Of a DNA stretch of 64,000 nucleotides, positions 4,695 through 16,257 are shown one piece after another; the first letter of the stretch is position 1, and the number at the start of each line of letters is the position of its first letter. The notes under the pieces are model-generated. The model did no database searches, was not told the origin of the DNA, and saw only the letters and a program-made list of their open reading frames with translations. The stretch covers positions 1-64,000 of the forward strand of contig JAAXGN010000014.1 of NCBI GenBank assembly GCA_012267415.1. The letters are read 5' to 3'. The translations under genes and the position numbers were made by a program. This DNA is from Candidatus Poribacteria bacterium. GTDB taxonomy: Bacteria; Poribacteria; WGA-4E; WGA-3G.

Positions 4695-7600
4695 GTGCTG
4701 GAACATATTAAAAAAACAGAAAAATACCAGACCCTGGTTGATCGCATCAAGAATGGAGAAGCACTTCCATACATACGAGGATTGTTGAACGCATCACTTG
4801 CTTATTTATTGGCATCCCTAATGGAAGAATTCTGCGATAAATCTTTCCTTCTCGTGTTTCCATCTCGTAGAGAGTCAGAACAGGTTTTGGAAGAAGTCCG
4901 CACATTCCATAATACACAGTCTGAATATAGAGCAACGCAAGATATATCACATAGAGATTTTCTGCTGTTTCCAGCATGGCAAAATACACTGTTTGAGGGG
5001 GCAGCACCGAGTAAAAACATATCAGTTGAAAGAATGCGTTGTCTACACAGATTGATCTCAAAAGACTGTCAAACGGACGATGCTAATTCTTTACCAAGTA
5101 CATCTCACTGTGCAGTTTTTACATCTATCCGATCATTGCTGTATAAACTCGTTCCGAGGGAGATACTCATGGCAGCATGTCGCACCCTCAGAAAAGGGGA
5201 TGAAATAGAATTTCACGAGTTTGTATCTTTCTTGATCCGTAGTGGCTATCGTCAAGTTGAACTGGTAGAGGTAAAAGGGGAATTTGCACACAGAGGGGAT
5301 ATCGTTGATGTCTTCCCGCTAACTTCAGACTCACCTGTTAGGTTTGATTTTTTTGATGATGAGATTGATGATATACGTCTATTCGACACGACATCACAAG
5401 TCTCAATAGAGAGCGTTTCTGGCATGGTCATTACCCCAGTGTCCGAAGTTTGTCCCGCCGACATCTCTATATCGCACTGGAAATCTGAGACAGAAAAGTT
5501 GATGAATCAAGGTGGACAATCCACGGAAACCATCAATCACATTAAAAATATCACACAGAAGTTAGAGGAAAACCTAAAAAGATCACAGATAGAGAGTTGG
5601 GATGTAATGGATACCCCTCCTCTTGACGTTGATGGAATAGAGGCATTCTTGCCAATGCTATATCCGAAAACAGATATGTTGACAGACTACCTCCCAAACG
5701 ATACGATTGTTGTCTCGGTAGAACCGCGTTGGCAAATCCGCGAAGTGGATCAGATGCGTGAGCAACTACAGGAAATTATTGACAGTAAACTATCAGAAGG
5801 TAAATTGATACCGGCTCTTGATAGCATATTATTAGAACCAGATATGCTTCAGTCTAAGTTTGATGATTATGCTAACATCACAATCTCTTTAGCATCCTCC
5901 GCCATAAACAGCGAGGATACTGCTAAAGATAGTATAGTAGCAGGCACTCTCCGAGTGCCGTCTCTTGATATAAACAGCGAGGATACTGCTAAAGACAGTA
6001 TAGTAGCAGGCACTCTCCGAGTGCCGTCTCTTGATATAAACAGCGAGGATGAGATACATTTTGACATGAAACCGCTTGGTCTCGGCAGAGGCAACTATCA
6101 AATGGTGATTGACCACCTCAGCAGATGGACAAGAAAAGGTTATTTAATCAACGTTTTCTGTGAAACACCACAACAGGCGAAACGCGTTTCAGAAATCTTA
6201 ATAGAACGTGATCTGCCACCAGAAAATACTTCGGTCACGGTAGGGTACATCTCTGAAGGATTCTTGAGCGATTCTCTAAAGTTAATTGTTATCTCTGAAA
6301 ATGAAATATTTGGTAATCGTCAACGACGTCCCTTGGTAAAGAAGCGAAACACAAACGGAGCACCGATCCTAAGCCTTGTTGATTTGAAGGTAGGAGACCA
6401 TGTTGTTCATGTTTCCCACGGTATAGCAATTTACGAAGGTATCCGCAGAATTGATATAGACGAACAGGCGCAGGACTTTCTGATTCTTAGATATAGGGAA
6501 GACGATGTGCTTTATGTGCCGACATATCAAGTAAACCTTGTTCAAAAGTATATTGGCAACAAAGATGAATCCTATTCACCAAAGATTGATTATCTCGGCG
6601 GCAAATCTTGGCAAACCAAGAAGTCACGGGCAAAAGCCGCTGTGGAGGAGATGGCAACGGAACTTCTAAAACTATACGCTGCACGACAAGCGAACACAGG
6701 TTTTAGTTTCCCCAGCGAAGTACCATGGGAAGGTGAATTTGAGGCACTCTTTCCGTTCCAAGAGACTGACGACCAACTGCAAGCAATTGAAGATGTTAAA
6801 GCAGATATGGAAACAGAAAGACCGATGGATCGACTGATCTGTGGTGATGTCGGCTATGGTAAGACAGAAGTCGCTTTACGCGCTGCCTTTAAAGCTGTGA
6901 TGGCTGAAAAACAGGTGGCAGTCCTTGTACCAACAACAATTCTCGCACTCCAGCACTATGATACTTTTGAGAAACGGTTTAAACCCTTTCCTATCCATCT
7001 TGAAATGCTGAACCGTTTCAGAAGTCAAAAAGAGATTCGAACTATTAAAGAAAGGCTGGAAGAAGGCACATTAGATATTGTTATCGGCACGCATTCTCTG
7101 CTATCAAAAACTGTCTCATTCCATAATCTCGGTTTACTTGTAGTTGACGAAGAGCATCGTTTCGGTGTAAAACATAAAGAAAAGATCAAGCAATTTAAAG
7201 AGACGGTTGATGTACTTACACTCACAGCAACCCCGATCCCAAGGACATTACACATGTCGCTTGTTGGTATTAGAGATTTTAGTATTATCAATACGCCCCC
7301 TGCCAATAGATTACCAATTCAGACACATGTGATGCCGTATAGTCCGAAGGTAATTAAAGATGCTATCATGAACGAGCTGGCACGTGATGGACAGATATTC
7401 TTCGTGCATAACCGTGTTCAGAGTATAGCAATAATTGCCAAAACAATACAGGAACTTGTACCGCAAGCACGGGTCGCAATCGCACATGGACAGATGCCAG
7501 AACGTGAATTAGAGAATGTTATGTTAGAATTTGTCAGACACAAACATGATATACTCGTCTGTACTATGATCATTGAGTCCGGCTTAGATATTCCGAATGT

Positions 7601-8540: not shown

Positions 8541-9518
8541 GTGAAAAAAATATTAATTGTTCCTACATTAATTGTAGTAACATGTCTACTCACTTGGTCA
8601 CTTGTGCAATCCGACAATCATGAAGCGGCAGAAGTTGAAATAGACAAAAATAGCATTATTATAGCCGAGTATAAATGGAACGGTGAACTTCATCAGATTT
8701 CACTCGCTGAACTTGAAGCTGCGATCGCAGAATTACCGACATACAGGCAACAAAACTATGCCAGCAAAAAAGGCAAAGCCGAATATCTGGAAACCTATAT
8801 TGACGAAAAACTCAAACTGCTACAGGCTAAAGATGAAGGTTTTGATAAGTTAGAAGACTTCCTGAAGAAAATGGAAGATTACTCCTATCAACTGATGGTT
8901 GAAAAACTTACAGAAATGGAAGTTGATGAAAAGATCTCCATTACCGATGCTGACTTGATGGCATATTATGAAAAGAACAAAAGTGATTACATTGAAGAAG
9001 AGAAAGTACGTGCAACTTGTATTACACTTGATGATGAAGACTTCGCAAATGAGACTTTAGACAAGATACTCGCAGGTAAAGACATAAAAGAAATGGCTAA
9101 AGAACTCACAGAAGCAAATAAGGTGGCGAGCGGTCCAGGTACAGGTCAGCAAGACCCGGGTAATACATATTTCTTTGGAAAATCTGCATCCCCTAATTGG
9201 TCAGAATTCATTGATGAAGTCTTTGAGATAAAGGTCAATGAAATGACCGAAACTGTTTTTGAAACAGATGTTGGAGAGGATACATTCTATCTGATTTTTC
9301 GCAAAGAGGAAGAGAAACCGGAACGCCAGAGAGAATTTGATGAAGTTAAATCGGATATTAATCGAAAGGTTGAACGCGAGAAAAAACGCTCACGTATTCT
9401 TGAATGGGTAGAGGAAATCTCAAATGCTGGAAAACTCAAAACCTATCCTGAGAATATACCACAAACGCTTCTACCAGAACCAGAAAATACGGAAAATGGT
9501 AAAGAATCTGACAACTAA
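8541..9518 (+). CDS. Exported parvulin-type peptidyl-prolyl isomerase-like protein, 325 aa
   Basis: A GTG start at 8541 follows GAAAGGAG. Residues 1-24 are a signal peptide. Residues about 45-155 resemble a SurA-like helical chaperone region (LAELEAAIAELPTYRQQNY, EYLETYIDEKLKLLQAKDEG, a repeated KLTEMEVDEKISITDADLMA segment). Residues about 155-265 resemble a degenerate parvulin domain (EKVRATCITL, GKDIKEMAKELTE, FEIKVNEMTETVFE, FYLIFRKEE). A charged helix closes it. Such proteins help fold outer-membrane proteins in the periplasm. The next gene is a clear tandem paralogue. Isomerase activity is uncertain because the domain is divergent. Confidence 0.8.
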   Translation: MKKILIVPTLIVVTCLLTWSLVQSDNHEAAEVEIDKNSIIIAEYKWNGELHQISLAELEAAIAELPTYRQQNYASKKGKAEYLETYIDEKLKLLQAKDEGFDKLEDFLKKMEDYSYQLMVEKLTEMEVDEKISITDADLMAYYEKNKSDYIEEEKVRATCITLDDEDFANETLDKILAGKDIKEMAKELTEANKVASGPGTGQQDPGNTYFFGKSASPNWSEFIDEVFEIKVNEMTETVFETDVGEDTFYLIFRKEEEKPERQREFDEVKSDINRKVEREKKRSRILEWVEEISNAGKLKTYPENIPQTLLPEPENTENGKESDN

Positions 9519-9550
9519 TGTCTGAAACTTATCCAAAGGAGGAAAAATAA

Positions 9551-10546
9551 ATGAAAAATTATCGTATTGTTCACACTATTTTGTTGGTTGCGCTCATTGC
9601 AACACTTCCATTCTTATACAGTTGTGGAGACAAAGCAATAGGCGCAGATGGAACCGTTATCGCTGAATTTGAATGGGACGGTAAACAGAGAATCACCCTT
9701 GAAGAAATGATGCAAGAAATCAGTGAACTGCCTGAATATAAACAACGACTATACCGAGATAAAGCGGGACTTGAAGAATACATGACACTTATGGCTGAAA
9801 GTCGACTCATCCTTTGTTTCGCTAAAGACCAAAAACTGAATGAAGACCCTGAGATCCTTAAGAAAGTACAGAATTATCTTATAGACTTAATGGTAGAAAA
9901 GATCACGGAACAAGAGGTAGAAAGCAAACTGCTCTTGTCAGAAAATGATTACCTTAATTACTATGAGTCAAATAAAGAGGATTATATTCGTCCTGAACAG
10001 GTCAAATTAATGTGCATCACACTCATGGATAAACAACGCGCAGATGAAGTTTTCGCTGAACTGAAAGCAGGGAAAGACATCGCTGTCGCAGCGCAAGAAC
10101 TATCTGATAGAGGTGAATTAGTAGGACCCGGTGCCAACCCTGAATCACCAGGGGATACCAATTATATCAGCAAAAATACCTATCCAACCGGAACAGAACC
10201 GTTCATAGAAGCTGCCTTCAATGCCGAGATAGACAAACTCCATCCTTCTGTCATAGAGGTAGAGGTACAGGGGGCAAAATACTACATGATGTTTGTCAAA
10301 AAAGAAGCCAGAGATGCCTTTCAAAGACCCTTCAGCGAAGAAGAGGTCCGCAGAAGCGTCGTCAGAAAAGCTGAACGTGAACGACGGGATATGCTCATGA
10401 AAGAGTGGACAACAAAACTCCGAGAACGAGCTGAAGTCAAAACATTCATAGACCGTATCCCTGAGGATAAAGCACCAGAAGCGGAACAACAGCAAGACGA
10501 ACAACAGACTGAAGAATCTTCTGAACAGAATACGCCAGAGAAATAA
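9551..10546 (+). CDS. Lipoprotein parvulin-type isomerase-like protein, 331 aa
   Basis: The ATG at 9551 follows AAAGGAGG. Residues 1-25 are a lipoprotein signal (lipobox LYSC, Cys25), unlike the preceding paralogue, which lacks a lipobox. The architecture is the same: helical SurA-like region (ITLEEMMQEISELPEYKQRL, EDPEILKKVQNYLIDLMVEK), then a parvulin-like part (EQVKLMCITLMDKQRADEVF, GKDIAVAAQELSD, YYMMFVKKE), then a helical tail and a Gln/Glu-rich end. It lies 32 bases after its paralogue, so the two are probably co-transcribed. The likely place of action is the periplasmic face of a membrane. Confidence 0.82.
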   Translation: MKNYRIVHTILLVALIATLPFLYSCGDKAIGADGTVIAEFEWDGKQRITLEEMMQEISELPEYKQRLYRDKAGLEEYMTLMAESRLILCFAKDQKLNEDPEILKKVQNYLIDLMVEKITEQEVESKLLLSENDYLNYYESNKEDYIRPEQVKLMCITLMDKQRADEVFAELKAGKDIAVAAQELSDRGELVGPGANPESPGDTNYISKNTYPTGTEPFIEAAFNAEIDKLHPSVIEVEVQGAKYYMMFVKKEARDAFQRPFSEEEVRRSVVRKAERERRDMLMKEWTTKLRERAEVKTFIDRIPEDKAPEAEQQQDEQQTEESSEQNTPEK

Positions 10547-10575
10547 CCTCAAGGCTAAGTCGTTAAATGATTATA

Positions 10576-10761
10576 CGGGCGGTGCCTTCATAATACCATT
10601 TCTAATTGAAAATTCATTAGTTGTAGCATAAACTTTCAGTTTGTGCTGTTCACAGTTTGATTAGTTGTAGCATAAACTTTCAGTTTGTGCTGTTCACAGT
10701 TTCATTACTAACTGATGGCAATGAGAGATAATCTAATAGAAATGGTATTCTATCCCGCCCG
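10576..10761. repeat. Composite element: two 44-bp direct repeats inside inverted arms
   Basis: ATTAGTTGTAGCATAAACTT and its continuation occur twice (10616-10658, 10660-10702; period 44). They are bracketed by inverted arms: CGGGCGG...AATACCATTTCTA at 10576-10604 and TAGAAATGGTATTCTATCCC followed by GCCCG at 10737-10761. The left arm has a few extra bases. The whole could fold as a stem with the repeats in the loop, or be a small mobile element. Confidence 0.7.
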
Positions 10762-10794
10762 TCTTACATTTACAAATTATCGGAGGTGAATAAA

Positions 10795-12126
10795 ATGAAG
10801 TCTAAAACAACAACCTCTATACTGCTTATCATACTCATACTATGCATCACTCTACCGACAAGTGACGCAAGAATATTTGACAAAATAATCGCTTATGTGA
10901 ATGACGATGTCATAACCAAACGACGGCTTGATTTAGTCGTTAAACAACGTGCTTTTGAACTACAACAGATGCACAGATACACTGAAAGTGAGGCACTTAA
11001 AGAAGCAGAAAAAGAACGAGGTGATCTGCTTGATAGACTTATCCGAGAGATGTTAGTTTTAGAAGCAGCCTTAACCCTAAAGGTTGAAGTGACCAACGTA
11101 GAAATTGAAGAACATGTTCAAAAGTACAAAAACCAATTTCAGATTCCATCGGATGAAGAATTTAAAAAACTCCTTAACCGAGAAGGATTAACGTTAGCAG
11201 CGTTTCGAGAACAACTACAGCGGAACTTGATGACTGAAAAACTGGTCATGGGGAGAATCTTGCCACGACTACAAGTACGTGATAGTGACGTTCAAAAGTT
11301 TTTTGAAGAAAACCGAGACCAATTACCAACTAAAGCAGATAAAGTCCATTTACGAAAGATATTCATTGCTTATGAACCGTCCGACGCTGAAAGAAAAACT
11401 GCTTATGACGAAGTGAAGCAAGCACTCGCTGATATTAAAACCGATAAAACACAATTTCAAGCGATTGCACGAAGTATTGCCGCTAAACATAACCTGAATA
11501 CACAAGTCGGTTTTCTAATTGAGACGACACCCGCAGAAATCTTGTCATATCCGAATGTGTTCCTTACAGTGCTTTCTAAACTGAAAGCAGGTGAGATGAG
11601 CGAACCTATTGAAGCGGAGGATGGTTATCATGTTTTCATGGTAGAAACACGAACGGATGAAAAGATAACTTTCAGACATTTAACAGTGCCATTCTCTTTC
11701 AGCCAAGAAGTTATCCAGAAAGCAAAAGATAAGATGCAGGATATAGTAAAAAAACTGGAAGCAGGTGAAAGTTTTGCAGAATTGGCGAAATTGCATTCAG
11801 ATGATACTGAGACCAAAGAAAATCAAGGGGACATGGGTATTCTTACGCTTACAGAATTAAATCCTATCATCCGGAAGATCGTTGAACCACTTGAAGTTGG
11901 TACATTCAGTGAAACGTTGGCATTAGATAATGGACTTCATATCTACAAAGTTGAAGACCGTAAAACGCCACAACTGACACTACAAGAGAAGCAACAGATA
12001 ATCGGAATCTTACGTCAACAACTTTTTGAAAAAGAATGGACAGCCTACACGGATTCACTGCTGGAAAACGCCTATATAAAAATTAAACCAGATGCTGTTC
12101 CATCAACCGAAACAAAAGATGAATAG
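10795..12126 (+). CDS. SurA-like periplasmic chaperone / peptidyl-prolyl isomerase, 443 aa
   Basis: The ATG at 10795 is preferred because CGGAGG lies 7 bases upstream. A GTG at 10786 overlaps that site. Residues 1-25 are a signal peptide. The SurA N-terminal domain spans about 28-175 (IIAYVNDDVITKRRLDLVVK, LLDRLIREMLVLEAA, FREQLQRNLMTEKLVMGRIL). Two parvulin-type domains follow, about 180-285 (VHLRKIFIAYE) and 290-400 (ITFRHLTVPF, AGESFAELAKLHSDD, QGDMGILTLTEL, DNGLHIYKVED). This is the SurA domain order, at SurA-like length. SurA escorts outer-membrane barrels, LptD among them, in Enterobacteria. Here the next gene is an LptD. Confidence 0.9.
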   Translation: MKSKTTTSILLIILILCITLPTSDARIFDKIIAYVNDDVITKRRLDLVVKQRAFELQQMHRYTESEALKEAEKERGDLLDRLIREMLVLEAALTLKVEVTNVEIEEHVQKYKNQFQIPSDEEFKKLLNREGLTLAAFREQLQRNLMTEKLVMGRILPRLQVRDSDVQKFFEENRDQLPTKADKVHLRKIFIAYEPSDAERKTAYDEVKQALADIKTDKTQFQAIARSIAAKHNLNTQVGFLIETTPAEILSYPNVFLTVLSKLKAGEMSEPIEAEDGYHVFMVETRTDEKITFRHLTVPFSFSQEVIQKAKDKMQDIVKKLEAGESFAELAKLHSDDTETKENQGDMGILTLTELNPIIRKIVEPLEVGTFSETLALDNGLHIYKVEDRKTPQLTLQEKQQIIGILRQQLFEKEWTAYTDSLLENAYIKIKPDAVPSTETKDE

Positions 12127-12127
12127 A

Positions 12128-12211
12128 ATCTGTTGTAGGGGCGAGGTCTCCTCGCCCGTAGAGAAAGCAAGATGTTGGATCTGTTGTAGGGGCGAGGTCT
12201 CCTCGCCCGTA
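12128..12211. repeat. Two direct copies of a GGGCGAGG-TCT-CCTCGCCC hairpin repeat
   Basis: Units at 12128-12160 and 12179-12211, 51 bases apart, each contain the perfect hairpin GGGCGAGG-TCT-CCTCGCCC. The same core is inside the mobile-like elements at 20102-20224 and 28175-28345, and a variant is at 16354-16374. After the SurA-like gene these hairpins could dampen transcription into lptD. Confidence 0.85.
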
Positions 12212-12324
12212 ACTAACCCTACGATAATTTGCTTTTGTGTTTAGAATTGCTATATATCAAACTCACGTTATAGTATTTCAATAGGAATCGTGTTAAGACA
12301 AAAGATATTAAGTCATAGTATAAA

Positions 12325-15300
12325 ATGAGCCAACATAAGAACACGTTATTGCAGAGAACTCTTTTGCATAACATTAAATCCAAGAATAAACAACCTACAC
12401 ACAGGTTGTTGTTTCTGTTTTCTATTCTCATTGTCCCACTCTCCTGCTTGTTATTACCGATACGGTCGATACACTCACAGACCTCTGAAACGCCTTCACA
12501 AGAATCATCTGACATTGAAACAGTTCCAGAGGTTGATACAAATGAATCTCAATCCGCAACAAAGCCTAAAGAGGTATTAGACCCTGAGACGATGACGCCT
12601 GAACCTGATACAGTCATTGGTGATGGAGATGAGGTAATTATTCAGGACAATATCGTGCGTATTCACGGTGATGCGCTTATCAAGTATGATAATGTGACGT
12701 TACGGGCAGATAACGTGTGGGCAGATTTCAATGAGAATCTGATGCGGGCAGCTGGCAACGTATATCTAAAAGTCGGTGAAGAGGAGACATTCTCTGATGA
12801 ACTCGTCTTTAACCTTGATACGAAGAAAGGAATTGCAAGAAATGGATTTACATATAGCGACCCCTGGTACTTCGGTGGAAGCGAAATCTTCAAAATAGAG
12901 GATAAAAAGTCGTATATCCGAAGCGGTTCCCTGACGACCTGTTCGCTGAAATACCCTCACTACTATTTCAGTGTGTCCGAAGTCATTATCAAAATGAATC
13001 AGGAGATGATAGCAAAGAATATCGTCATGAAAATCGGTGGTATTCCGCTTTTCTATTTTCCCGCAATTCGTCGTGATCTCCGCAAAGATAAAGTCGCAAA
13101 GATTGTCGTACGAGTCGGTACAGATAGTTATCAAGGTCCAAATATCAGCATCATATACCCTTTCTTACGACAAAGACGCTATGATGCTGCAATTCTCTAC
13201 GATAGAAGTGCACGAAGAGGACAAGGTTTCGGTTTTGAGGGGAAATATAGGTTCAACGATACGAAGTTTAGAGAAATATATATTCCAATTCCTCCAGACG
13301 CAACACCTGCACAACGCACGAAACTAAAAGAAAAAGCAGAAATGCTTCACGATCAACTTGAAGGTGACTATGACCGTTACTGGCTAAAACAACTCTTTCT
13401 GGAGTATCAGATTACTGAGGAAGATGCAAATAGGGCAAAAGAGGAAGCAGATAAAATACACCAACAACTTAATGAAGAAAACACTAAGTTTTCTGAAATC
13501 GCACAGAGAGAATCTGACCACACGGATACACGATACGAAGGCGGCGATATGGGATTTCTGACAAAAGGCGAAACGAATCAGGAAGGTGAACCAATCCTTG
13601 ACCCAATCTTAGATGAAGCTGCATTTTCTCTGAAAGAGGGAGAAATCAGCTCTGTTTTAAGAACAGATACGTCATTTCATATCCTAAAGGTAGAACGTAT
13701 ACTCAATGTCTATGGTGAAAAGGAGATAAGACTATCCCGTATTGACATTGCAGTCACCGCGAGCAATGAAACACAACAGAAGGTGAGAGAGATCGCAACG
13801 GATATCCATGAACGTGCAATTGCTGGTGAGACATTTGAAAAACTCGCTGAAGAATTCACTGAAGCAGAAGTATCTGAAATCAATGAAGGCAAAGGTCTAC
13901 CACTCAATGAAATGGCTTCAGGATGGCAGTATTCTGTCAGAAGATTAGAGAAACCAGGAGATATTACTGAACGAAATCCTGTTTTCTCACCTGAAGGACT
14001 CTATATCTTCCAACTCATCAAGAAAAACGAAACACCAACGTTTGAGGAACTCGCAGAAGGGTTTGAGACTGAATGGGAAACTTTCCAAGCTGAGGTATTA
14101 ACAACTCCCAGTGAAGAGGAAACGACTACCGACACAGATGATGAAGAAGGAAACAAACAAAAAAACAACCAACCGCAGCCTACATCAAACGGCAAGGAAC
14201 AAAACATTACATCTGAAGATTCTGATAAAACTGAAGAAATTACGGATGATGTAGCAGCTGATTCTTCTGACAATGAAGAAGACATGACAACCGAGACTAA
14301 AGAAGATGATAGTCAGTTACAGTCTGAATCGGCAGGGGATGATACAATTGATAAATCAGATCAACCCGCTGAAACTGAAGAAATAAATATTGGATCGGAA
14401 AATGGAGAAGAGGAAGAAGAGAAAATAGAGGTCTATAGAAAACACGGATTTCGCGGTAGATGGGAAGACCATAGACAGGTGGCTTCTGAAGCGCAAAGTC
14501 TCTACGCAGGAGAATATAGCAGATTAATTGATACAAAAGAGTCGTACCATATCCTCAAAGTTGACAGGAAACGTAGTTATTACGGAGATATCTATCTATA
14601 CGGTGCAGATGAATATTCCTTCAGCAGGCAGGATGCTACGCGTATCGGTAGACGTTGGAATATGCGGTGGGGACATAGACAATCCTTCTTCACACCCTGG
14701 GATAGTAAGAAAGACGGTCGACGTCCGATTAGTTTTGTAGGACGGACAGCATGGCGCGCTGAGCATTACAGAGAAGAATTGAAACTACCTAATGAATCCT
14801 CAATCAATTCATTTGGGATAATCACTTACGGTGCATCATTTTCTGCAGCAAGTGATAAAGACATTGATGAAGATGGAAACCTCCGCTTTTCACGAGAAAC
14901 CATCGGTGATTTTACCGGTAGACTTGAGGTCAGACATGTGCATGACTTCTCAGATGAGAACAATACCGCGCTACAAAAACTACCGCAATTAACCCTGAAC
15001 TTTTCTCGCATGCGTTTCAGTAGACTACCATTATTCGAGAATATCAATGACGGTTTAGTGAGCCTATCGGAAAAAGCAAAAACAGATATACCATTCCTCT
15101 CAGTTTTCGCAATTCCTACACTGGAAGACACTAGCTTTGATATGGATATTGAGTTTGGGAACTTCTATAGAAAAACATACCGTAACAAATTTAAGGAAGT
15201 AGAAAAGGACATATTCCTACAGTCTATAGATTTAGGGTTTGACCTGCGTAAGCAATCAAATTTATTCATAACACCGCTGCGAGAACTGAAAATAAGTGCC

Positions 15301-16257
15301 AATTTGAATACTAACGTAATATGGCATGCAAAAGACCAAGAGAAAAACAGGAATATCATCCGTGGTGTTTATAGTATGAGAGCCCAAGCAACGAATACGT
15401 TGTTCCGAATATACAGCACAAGATTTATTCCCGGTGTCAGAAAATTACGCCATGAAATGCAATCTTCATTGACTTTTGATTATCAGCCCCCCATTGATGC
15501 AAACGAAAATCTTTATCCATTTGGTCCAAGTACCTATTTCTTTGAGCGCAGAAGATTGACCTACAACTTTAACACAAACATTGAAATAAAAACCAGGCGT
15601 AGTCAATCTGCACATCGTATATTCCATTTTGATACGCGACTCACTGCAGATTTCACAGAATTTGAAGCACTCTATCGACGCAAATACGAACCTATAGAAA
15701 GTGATTTTACCATCATTCCACTTCCCAGTCGTAATCTGAATATGACAGTTCGACTTACACATGATCCCAATCCACATCCCGATGATGGGAAACAATTTAA
15801 AATGGTCGGGATAAGGACGAATATCAGATACACCCGTAAAACTTGGAATGTGAGTTTAGGTAATTCTTTTAGTAAGCGACATACCTCAATTCGTGCTTCT
15901 CGTTCAATGACTGCTAACGGTCGCTACAGAGTCAGCAAAGATCTGGAGTTCGATTTCAGTCTCATCTATTACCCGATAGAACGGCAGTTTTATTCTCAGC
16001 GCATCAGTTTAAACCGCAATTTACACGATTGGAATTTACGCATTTCTTGGAGTCGTGTCGGCATAAAACGGGACCCCCCGTTTGACAATGTCAGACAAGA
16101 TTTCACATTCCAGGTCAACTTAATAGGCGAGCCTGCAGTCTCAGCCGGTATCGGTTATGATGCAACTACCGAAACATGGGGACTCCACACCCTTCCTGCA
16201 GGTGTTCCGTATAATGCATTCGGCACAGGCAATTCACTCGGTAGGTCCTTCTTCTAA
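12325..16257 (+). CDS. lptD: LptD-type LPS assembly outer-membrane protein with internal parvulin domains, 1310 aa
   Basis: LptD inserts lipopolysaccharide into the outer leaflet. A hydrophobic export segment spans about residues 28-46. Residues about 90-200 are the OstA/LptA-type periplasmic fold (IVRIHGDALIKYDNVTLRAD). The LptD signature follows (SGSLTTCSLKYPHYYFSVSE, IGGIPLFYFPAIRRD), then the first barrel strands (FGFEGKYRF, to about 311). About residues 318-752 interrupt the barrel. One recognisable parvulin domain lies here (helix ANRAKEEADKIHQQL, GGDMGFL at 406-412, FHILKVERI), followed by a second degenerate one, an Asp/Glu-rich linker about 590-700, and a third parvulin-like tail ending YHILKVDRK. 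The barrel resumes at YYGDIYLYGADEYSF and runs to the end. The family is usually near 750-950 residues. No strong ribosome site precedes the ATG, so the exact start is uncertain. Confidence 0.88.
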   Translation: MSQHKNTLLQRTLLHNIKSKNKQPTHRLLFLFSILIVPLSCLLLPIRSIHSQTSETPSQESSDIETVPEVDTNESQSATKPKEVLDPETMTPEPDTVIGDGDEVIIQDNIVRIHGDALIKYDNVTLRADNVWADFNENLMRAAGNVYLKVGEEETFSDELVFNLDTKKGIARNGFTYSDPWYFGGSEIFKIEDKKSYIRSGSLTTCSLKYPHYYFSVSEVIIKMNQEMIAKNIVMKIGGIPLFYFPAIRRDLRKDKVAKIVVRVGTDSYQGPNISIIYPFLRQRRYDAAILYDRSARRGQGFGFEGKYRFNDTKFREIYIPIPPDATPAQRTKLKEKAEMLHDQLEGDYDRYWLKQLFLEYQITEEDANRAKEEADKIHQQLNEENTKFSEIAQRESDHTDTRYEGGDMGFLTKGETNQEGEPILDPILDEAAFSLKEGEISSVLRTDTSFHILKVERILNVYGEKEIRLSRIDIAVTASNETQQKVREIATDIHERAIAGETFEKLAEEFTEAEVSEINEGKGLPLNEMASGWQYSVRRLEKPGDITERNPVFSPEGLYIFQLIKKNETPTFEELAEGFETEWETFQAEVLTTPSEEETTTDTDDEEGNKQKNNQPQPTSNGKEQNITSEDSDKTEEITDDVAADSSDNEEDMTTETKEDDSQLQSESAGDDTIDKSDQPAETEEINIGSENGEEEEEKIEVYRKHGFRGRWEDHRQVASEAQSLYAGEYSRLIDTKESYHILKVDRKRSYYGDIYLYGADEYSFSRQDATRIGRRWNMRWGHRQSFFTPWDSKKDGRRPISFVGRTAWRAEHYREELKLPNESSINSFGIITYGASFSAASDKDIDEDGNLRFSRETIGDFTGRLEVRHVHDFSDENNTALQKLPQLTLNFSRMRFSRLPLFENINDGLVSLSEKAKTDIPFLSVFAIPTLEDTSFDMDIEFGNFYRKTYRNKFKEVEKDIFLQSIDLGFDLRKQSNLFITPLRELKISANLNTNVIWHAKDQEKNRNIIRGVYSMRAQATNTLFRIYSTRFIPGVRKLRHEMQSSLTFDYQPPIDANENLYPFGPSTYFFERRRLTYNFNTNIEIKTRRSQSAHRIFHFDTRLTADFTEFEALYRRKYEPIESDFTIIPLPSRNLNMTVRLTHDPNPHPDDGKQFKMVGIRTNIRYTRKTWNVSLGNSFSKRHTSIRASRSMTANGRYRVSKDLEFDFSLIYYPIERQFYSQRISLNRNLHDWNLRISWSRVGIKRDPPFDNVRQDFTFQVNLIGEPAVSAGIGYDATTETWGLHTLPAGVPYNAFGTGNSLGRSFF

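Follow-up and report, generated by a model that had tools for sequence, protein, structure and literature searches.

An open reading frame on the forward strand of the window (the whole stretch of 64,000 nucleotides of poribacterial DNA analysed here) encodes an LptD whose barrel carries an insert of about 440 residues, bounded at about residues 311 and 752 of 1310. The insert consists of three parvulin domains, A, B and C; domain A is split, and B and C lie within it. No LptD with this layout was listed in searches of full-text literature, as the initial annotation had supposed. We tentatively favour a putative function as a non-catalytic periplasmic brace that would assist assembly of the barrel and hold the jellyroll. 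The genes and the parts of the protein are as follows.

8541-9518, forward strand: parvulin-family protein (Rotamase_2, 41.8 bits)
9551-10546, forward strand: parvulin-family-like protein (Rotamase_2, 23.8 bits, under the cut-off of 27)
10786-12126, forward strand: surA, the upstream neighbour of lptD, with a SurA N-terminal domain and two parvulin domains (Pfam)
12325-16257, forward strand: lptD with the nested parvulin insert, 1310 residues, frame open throughout (Pfam, phmmer, AlphaFold2, Foldseek)
12637-13089, forward strand: N-terminal LPS-feeding beta-jellyroll, residues ~105-255 (AlphaFold2 strands; alignment with 7omm and 5iv9)
13090-13254, forward strand: barrel strands 1-4, residues ~256-310 (strand 1 modelled at low confidence)
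13255-13371, forward strand: N-terminal half of parvulin A, beta1-alpha1, residues ~311-349 (join tests; AlphaFold2 strand 189-211 and helix 218-236, model numbering)
13372-13710, forward strand: parvulin B, residues ~350-462 (best family match; Pfam Rotamase at 364-457)
13711-14031, forward strand: parvulin C, degenerate, residues ~463-569 (AlphaFold2; PF00639 at 13756-14019, E 2.1e-6)
14032-14100, forward strand: C-terminal half of parvulin A, helix alpha2 (TPTFEELAEGF...), residues ~570-592 (AlphaFold2, sequence tests)
14101-14433, forward strand: acidic linker inside parvulin A, predicted disordered, residues ~593-703 (pLDDT, dN/dS)
14434-14580, forward strand: rest of the C-terminal half of parvulin A, residues ~704-752 (AlphaFold2 strand 630-654)
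14581-16134, forward strand: barrel strands 5-26, residues ~753-1270 (AlphaFold2, Foldseek)

Identity of the protein

Comparison of models and sequences confirms the product as LptD, as had been annotated. When the AlphaFold2 model of residues 111-1310 was compared with the PDB using Foldseek, all of the best 15 matches were LptD (E 4.8e-16 to 4.7e-12), with 1207-1265 alignment columns covering jellyroll and barrel and TM-scores by target length of only 0.36-0.45. The model of a relative, L114, gave the same ranking. Both models have a pTM of 0.50-0.53 and were read as strand and helix assignments with pLDDT. The solved LptD 7omm was matched by phmmer over residues 87-343 (E 6.5e-5) and by a fragment of the protein (E 4.9e-5), and Pfam LptD_2 matches the phylum relative L118 (E 4.7e-9). 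The window protein has no LptD family match in Pfam up to E 1, and a PF04453 profile search of its genome gave 0 matches, so the identity rests on the folds together with weaker sequence matches. Its residues 106-313 resemble the barrel family CT351_fam (NCBIfam NF052235; E 2.9e-6) with 26.1 bits, far under the family cut-off of 900, and membership is not claimed.

The protein shares with solved LptDs (9rpr, 4q35, 5iv9, 7omm) the jellyroll, the beta2 proline and a barrel in which 26 strands were counted, including a short strand 1 with pLDDT near 50 and excluding two short strands in the C-terminal tail that were modelled at low confidence. The L114 model has 25 barrel strands, strand 1 being unassigned there. 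The genome likewise contains two adjacent LptF_LptG matches and LpxC, which belong to the LPS pathway. Unlike the solved proteins, the poribacterial one has the insert in the periplasmic beta4-beta5 turn and lacks the beta1 proline (judged by eye), the LHC-turn cysteine and a match to PF04453. LptE (PF04390) was not matched in the window's own genome; since 36 of 84 phylum genomes, G060 among them, do have LptE, the idea that the insert stands in for it was rejected as a general explanation.

Structure of the insert

Pfam Rotamase (PF00639) matches the protein in three stretches with E 1.1e-28, the whole protein scoring 100.5 bits against a cut-off of 21.7, and PPIases of known structure appear both in the sequence and in the fold matches. 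The initial annotation had described a parvulin-type insert at residues 318-752 with a clear parvulin domain, a degenerate one, an acidic linker and a parvulin-like tail. All of these pieces are present and the end at 752 stands; the start is revised to about 311, and the three parvulin parts do not simply follow one another, for the tail (704-752) belongs to the C-terminal half of domain A, the N-terminal half of which (311-349) opens the insert.

Several sequence tests show that domain A is split, with B and C between its halves. Joining the two halves raised the Rotamase score from 40.4 to 52.8 bits in L034, from 52.7 to 62.6 bits in L118 and, with the linker left out, from 19.7 to 33.9 bits in the window protein, and each time nearly the whole model was covered; with the halves in reversed order L034 scored 44.9 bits. 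Against a SurA-only profile, the joined domain of all seven linker-free relatives was equalled or beaten by 0, 2, 0, 1, 0, 4 and 6 of 300 shuffles. The window's own joined domain did no better than shuffles against this profile (406 of 500 reached its score), perhaps because the cut at the linker removed residues. Barrel strands 4 and 5 are predicted to extend without a break into the first and last strands of A, as residues 189-211 and 630-654 in the window model and 279-301 and 598-622 in the L114 model.

The linker, which has pLDDT below 50 over model residues 485-589, averages 37% D/E in 61 sequences of the window's order. It is 32-185 residues long in all 61 and 7 residues long in all 11 sequences from other families. 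The three-domain layout is the same in the window's class and in two genomes outside it, and a second parvulin, permuted in order and situated in a different periplasmic turn, is found in two genomes outside the class.

Insertion site

The models place the insertion site in a periplasmic turn that joins barrel strands 4 and 5; an early turn on the periplasmic side had been proposed from the sequence. From the insert to the LH(C/D)W turn, 20 strands were counted in both models. In solved LptDs this LHC turn (beta24-beta25) is periplasmic and has two consecutive cysteines, according to PMC8983717; as the strand count is even, the insert would be on the periplasmic side. An extracellular insert, which would follow when counting from the N-terminus if strand 1 were no strand, was rejected, because the count from the cysteine turn omits strand 1. 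The site itself was fixed by eye on raw sequences, since the MAFFT outgroup alignment scatters 60-83 outgroup residues into the insert columns. A second HMM stretch in L128 (profile 630-710), which would place the site, reaches only 0.7 bits and was not used as evidence. When the site was placed by hand on what we take to be the E. coli LptD sequence, three published pairs of extracellular-loop boundaries all fitted with a constant offset of 15, and the strand after the insert would be the strand before EL3. These boundaries are Tyr291-Trp311, Lys333-Thr356 and Phe377-Ser389 (PMC12685063).

Active-site residues and cysteines

Active-site positions of the parvulin domains were placed by eye, both histidines being taken from what we presume to be the arrangement in Pin1 and Par10. 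None of A, B and C has the first catalytic histidine in any of the 61 sequences of the order (E, Q/E and R stand there). Domain B retains GGDxGF-type residues, has D in 55 of 61 sequences at the position taken as Pin1 Cys113, and has its last histidine (His2) in 61 of 61; none of the 11 sequences aligned from other families keeps this histidine, and one of them, L114, carries H at the first active-site position of C. The free SurA proteins of the phylum, too, have both histidines in only 9 of 62 P1 and 9 of 62 P2 domains, so the insert is not alone in having an incomplete pair.

The only cysteines of the window protein are Cys41, in the presumed signal peptide, and Cys206, and the LHC-turn position is D1235; as judged from its residues, the usual jellyroll-barrel disulfide cannot form. 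L118, outside the class, keeps both disulfide cysteines alongside the insert. One of 11 outgroup sequences displayed, L133, has D in the LHC turn and no insert, so that cysteine loss does not need the insert, and these cysteines are treated as a variable feature.

SurA and other parvulins

The surA gene lies upstream of lptD in 67 of 77 loci. Like SurA (1m5y and the neighbouring gene), the insert has parvulin domains in series, and comparison of profile A1 with 1m5y gives a match at positions 301-550 (E 2.3e-14). It differs in that no SurA N-terminal domain was matched by Pfam in the LptD protein, in the splitting of the third parvulin around the others and in being fixed in a membrane protein. 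With PrsA/PpiC-type parvulins (2jzv, 3gpk) it shares sequence type and fold, B matching 2jzv with E 2.6e-10, but it lacks the first active-site histidine and is no free enzyme. Most B domains group with SurA P1 domains of two genomes outside the class, L118's B lying outside the other B domains, in a tree that has no support values and is a hint only. PMC13067283 describes a structure of SurA PPIase-1 with the peptide WEYIPNV and credits chain expansion mainly to the SurA Core. A guessed 24-base pattern for a repeat inside the presumed mfd gene had 0 matches in the window.

Conservation

The insert is joined to LptD sequence in 80 of 84 genomes of the phylum. A single match runs through it in 75; in 5 the join is present, but a contig end interrupts the locus or the match comes in several pieces. 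Contig ends cut the locus at the insert in G010, and G048, G064 and G067 have only weak matches, with no LptD found. Among the matches listed for 204 genomes outside the phylum, none spans LptD and insert. The initial annotation had named two genes wrongly merged by assembly as an alternative. The frame is split in individual relatives (G012/L051, G057) and no support for an artefact was found, whereas independent assemblies, the chromosome-scale L056, L062, L078, L079, L089 and L093 among them, have one open frame. Together with the recurrence of the single-gene layout in the phylum, this refutes a merged gene, the probability of which is negligible. Structure prediction, suggested as a further check, gave parvulin-type fold matches and an LptD fold overall.

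Values of dN/dS indicate that the insert is under purifying selection, being 0.05-0.09 in four pairs. Between the window protein and L064, the insert has a value of 0.09, the barrel that follows 0.06 and the linker 0.47. Parvulins B and C have 62-63% identity and the jellyroll 77%.

Function of the insert

A set of SurA-type parvulin domains may have entered an ancestral poribacterial LptD at the periplasmic turn that joins strands 4 and 5. These strands, extended into the first and last strands of A, would form a stiff stalk from which B and C hang. The parvulin domains would not work as isomerases; they would bind peptide without catalysis and serve as a fixed brace, keeping LptD competent for assembly at the BAM complex and holding the jellyroll, the LPS-feeding domain, under the barrel. 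Such a brace would do work that elsewhere leans on SurA and the jellyroll-barrel disulfide; contacts of the insert with jellyroll, barrel, BAM and SurA are putative. It could also follow gate opening, since the site lies within the six N-terminal strands reported, in PMC8983717, to shift when the gate opens. Against this brace count the retention of SurA next to lptD, the lack in the insert of the SurA Core, and the invariance of B's His2 within the order, which would be consistent with that domain retaining some active-site function. It is possible, if doubtful, that everything holds jointly: a built-in non-catalytic brace, present in LptD throughout the phylum, that steers the protein's own barrel through BAM and keeps hold of the jellyroll, a disulfide checkpoint made dispensable in one class, and nested and permuted domains derived from parvulin halves recombined at one helix boundary.

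Rather unlikely, in our estimate, is a docking platform that binds a partner (SurA, BAM lipoproteins, an LptA bridge, peptidoglycan or another protein) and does no chaperoning of LptD. It would suit the phylum-wide retention of parvulins with incomplete active sites, the conserved order of the parvulin-family genes just upstream and the confinement of the acidic linker to the window's order; however, the linker evolves fast and the partners are candidates. An active prolyl isomerase or foldase acting in cis on LptD, the folding helper of the initial annotation, is given a low probability, despite the residues kept in B, the PPIases among the matches and the similar loss of histidines in the phylum's SurA. 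An active isomerase or "own SurA" is unlikely because none of the three domains has the first histidine and the insert lacks the SurA core; the SurA gene itself adjoins. Activity of B is also unlikely as the ancestral reason for keeping the insert, because its last histidine is not kept in the other families.

A putative role at the gate near the LPS entry site, which had also been proposed, is possible. A stalk coupling the opening of the gate (strands 1/26) with the jellyroll or with the arrival of LPS would draw on the position of the site among the moving strands, the strand continuity of stalk and barrel in both models and the beta2 proline P279, invariant in 15 of 15 sequences, yet the beta1 proline is absent, and this regulator appears improbable. 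Least credible among these functional readings is an old tolerated insertion with little function of its own, retained because losing it would break the hairpin of the barrel: domains A and C are degenerate, B and C are less conserved than the jellyroll and the linker varies in length, but the low dN/dS of the insert and the constant three-domain layout within and outside the class argue against it.

Implications

In E. coli, LptD cannot do without helpers and disulfide shuffling. A phylum with SurA-type domains fixed in LptD, and with the usual disulfide lost in one class, is a natural experiment on the role of these helpers. Closure of a barrel with a folded module of about 440 residues in an early periplasmic hairpin is also a sharp test for BAM. 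A parvulin arm in the LPS export gate may show a different way to assemble or steady an essential gate.

Identity of the protein

The open frame at positions 12325-16257 (+) encodes 1310 residues; L051 and L064 are near-identical proteins (96% and 92% identity, respectively, over the best segment). No Pfam LptD model matches the protein up to an E-value of 1, and the Pfam LptD model PF04453 has no match in the window's own genome. The solved LptD of N. gonorrhoeae (7omm) is matched by residues 87-343 (phmmer, E 6.5e-5), CT351_fam matches the protein with an E-value of 2.9e-6, far under the family cut-off, and the relative L118 is matched by Pfam LptD_2 (E 4.7e-9).

For the window protein the AlphaFold2 model covers residues 111-1310 (37 sequences, mean pLDDT 74, pTM 0.53); that of the relative L114 covers the entire chain (1163 residues, 30 sequences, pLDDT 71.5, pTM 0.50). 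The best 15 PDB hits found with Foldseek are LptDs for both models (best E 4.8e-16 for the window protein and 5.5e-18 for L114); 4q35, titled only "membrane protein" in the PDB, is the Shigella LptDE according to passages of PMC8983717. The same searches also retrieve the PPIase 8hm4 and SurA (1m5y), ranked below the LptDs in both lists. The TM-scores of the window model with LptDs are low (0.36-0.45, normalised by target length), so the likeness is one of layout and not of exact shape. On the 7omm and CT351_fam matches, LptD_2 in L118 and the fold, the protein is an LptD, as initially annotated.

The LPS pathway is represented in the same genome by two adjacent LptF_LptG matches and LpxC. LptE (PF04390) was found in 36 of the 84 phylum genomes and was not recognised in that of the window, where a divergent LptE is possible. 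By eye, residues ~259-271 lack the beta1 proline found in the LptD gate, while all 15 aligned sequences share the beta2 proline (P279).

Architecture of the insert

The Pfam parvulin model Rotamase matches the protein in three stretches with an E-value of 1.1e-28. The parvulin content noticed initially is thus borne out, but the domains do not follow one another in series: in the aligned relatives parvulin A is split around B and C.

Segments of the insert in the window protein (alignment of 15 sequences)
Residues 311-349: parvulin A, N-terminal half
Residues 350-462: parvulin B, complete
Residues 463-569: parvulin C, degenerate
Residues 570-592 and 704-752: parvulin A, C-terminal half, with the acidic linker inside

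When the halves of A are joined, a single Rotamase match spans nearly the whole model in L034 (another relative), L118 and the window protein. The score of L034 rises from 40.4 to 52.8 bits, that of L118 from 52.7 to 62.6 and that of the window protein, its linker removed, from 19.7 to 33.9; the L034 halves in reversed order score 44.9 bits. The N-terminal half of A was also shuffled and the joined score compared, using a profile built from SurA domains only. In seven linker-free relatives the joined domain was matched or beaten by 0, 2, 0, 1, 0, 4 and 6 of 300 shuffles. None of 500 shuffles reached the score of L034 or L118, the best L034 shuffle coming within 0.4 bits, and the window's own joined A fails this test (406 of 500 equal or better). 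As a yardstick, cutting B at the corresponding position and rejoining it gave a far larger gain than for A, reached by 0 of 300 shuffles in four of four cases.

The predicted secondary structure in both models runs beta-alpha, then B and C, then alpha-...-beta-alpha-...-beta. Several tests show domain A to be nested around B and C. The strand before the insert is predicted to run unbroken from the barrel into A (model residues 189-211 in the window protein, 279-301 in L114), as is the strand after it (630-654 and 598-622), so that barrel strands would be continuous with those of A. The mean pLDDT is 74-93 in the insert blocks (window model residues 201-480) and falls below 50 at residues 485-589, within the linker.

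Insertion site

Outgroup LptDs have a short turn where the insert sits. By eye, the outgroup L128 reads ...GTLFEYQKDSVNSGSIYLYG... and the window protein ...GFEGKYRFND[insert]YYGDIYLYG.... The phmmer alignment with 5iv9 extends as far as the strand just before the insert. The flanking strands are numbered here as barrel strands 4 and 5; by count, 20 strands separate the insert from the LH(C/D)W turn in both models, leaving out two short low-confidence strands past strand 26. In solved LptDs this beta24-beta25 turn is periplasmic and carries two cysteines, according to passages of PMC8983717. By this parity the insert is periplasmic, in agreement with the side guessed initially.

Distribution and a second insert

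A single match runs through the insert in 75 of the 84 phylum genomes, including G012, which has a stop within the match. Five more (G047, G054, G057, G059, G060) also join the insert to the LptD flank, the match being interrupted by a contig end or given in pieces; in G010 contig ends cut the match at the insert. Only weak matches were found in three (G048, G064, G067), where LptD was not found. In all, the insert is joined to LptD in 80 of the 84 genomes.

The wider search covered 288 genomes, 204 of them outside the phylum (17 of these without any match). Among the matches listed there, with two candidates scored per genome so that a divergent case could escape, none spans LptD and insert; the LptD matches stop at profile positions 251-341, mostly near 300, the best scoring 134 bits. 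Fourteen outgroup LptDs (L124-L137) have no parvulin match above 0 bits, whereas the same profile gives two to four matches in each of 15 poribacterial LptDs. Of 72 aligned poribacterial LptDs, 61 are placed in the window's order, assigned by identity and kinship and not record by record; the linker is 32-185 residues long in all of these and 7 residues in the 11 others.

Two lptD genes of single MAGs lie in two frames (L051:3319-7267, apparently the locus of L003/G012, and G057:C4:36065-39548), either real breaks or assembly errors. The G066 bin (contamination 9%) holds two full-length parvulin-LptD copies and is perhaps two mixed genomes.

G060 (L118) and G059 (L119/L120), the only genomes of the phylum set outside the window's class, have the first insert and a fourth parvulin, D.

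lptD genes with parvulin D
L118:1-3786 (-)
L120:1-2334 (+)

D lies between strands numbered 10 and 11, by parity a periplasmic turn, and is permuted, its C-terminal half preceding its N-terminal half; it is broken at the same helix boundary as A. Restoring the usual order in L118 raises the score from 56.9 to 71.2 bits (Rotamase_3) and from 50.9 to 64.3 (Rotamase); with the SurA-built profile, none of 500 shuffles scores as high as the rejoined domain. In the window protein a helix is predicted at this turn.

LptD is known; its architecture with a parvulin insert is new as far as full-text searches of mostly open literature show, since among the papers listed no title or abstract opening reports such an LptD, in line with the initial annotation, which knew of none.

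The only cysteines of the window protein are 41, in the presumed signal peptide, and 206; with D at the LH-turn position, 1235, the protein cannot make the usual jellyroll-barrel disulfide. Both cysteines are kept in L118, the one aligned sequence that has C in the LH turn; it also has the insert, which on this alignment seems to predate the cysteine loss. However, the outgroup L133 (one of 11 displayed) has D in the LH turn and no insert.

Gene neighbourhood

In 67 of 77 loci, a set that counts two contigs twice, lptD has surA upstream. In six of the remaining ten lptD is the sole recognised gene; four lack a recognised lptD C-terminus, three of these having surA. Of the 73 loci in which an lptD C-terminus was recognised, 53 show the complete order mfd, two parvulin-family genes, surA, lptD, many of the others being shortened by contig ends; mfd was named by eye, not by search. 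In the window, four consecutive parvulin-type genes (two Rotamase_2-like, SurA, LptD) occupy 8541-16257 behind the presumed mfd. Within the mfd coding sequence, at 5904-6035, a 66-base unit occurs twice in tandem and in frame (98% identity between the copies), which adds 2 x 22 residues (INSEDTAKDSIVAGTLRVPSLD).

Function of the insert

The first and last active-site histidine positions are taken to be those of Pin1/Par10 and were placed by eye. Across the order (61 sequences), the first position holds E in every A domain, Q in 58 and E in 3 of the B domains, and R in every C domain; the last histidine is present in all 61 B domains but in only 5 of A. Among the 11 sequences of other families the last histidine is found in none of the B and two of the A domains (L117, L032), and one (L114) has H at the first position of C. 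From sequence, the missing histidines argue against robust isomerase activity. Free SurA is mixed too: among 62 distinct sequences, both histidines are present in nine P1 and nine P2 domains (the two SurA parvulins), P1 having mostly the first only (43) and P2 mostly the last only (41); both are kept in P2 of the window's SurA. Thus their loss does not separate the insert sharply from SurA, and these counts leave the standing of the functional readings as it was.

The insert has no SurA N-domain match and no full active site, and is therefore not read as a private SurA or isomerase; the folding helper envisaged in the initial annotation is not upheld in the SurA sense, and a foldase is very improbable. 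The insert is under selection. Between the window protein and L064, dN/dS is 0.02 in the jellyroll and strands 1-4, 0.09 in the parvulin segments (A-N/B/C/A-C1), 0.06 in the remaining barrel and 0.47 in the linker; the insert gives 0.05-0.06 in three deeper pairs, where several regions are saturated. That it has been kept by history is the least probable reading.

Strands 4 and 5 belong to the six N-terminal strands reported to move on opening, and the PPIase-1 of SurA has been crystallised with the peptide WEYIPNV, chain expansion by SurA being credited primarily to its Core (passages of PMC8983717 and PMC13067283, respectively). Regulation of the gate by the insert is improbable, and a docking platform is a better, still rather unlikely, candidate. 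Tentatively, we favour a brace or clamp built of non-catalytic parvulins that would bind peptides and be rigidly connected to the side of the barrel that moves.
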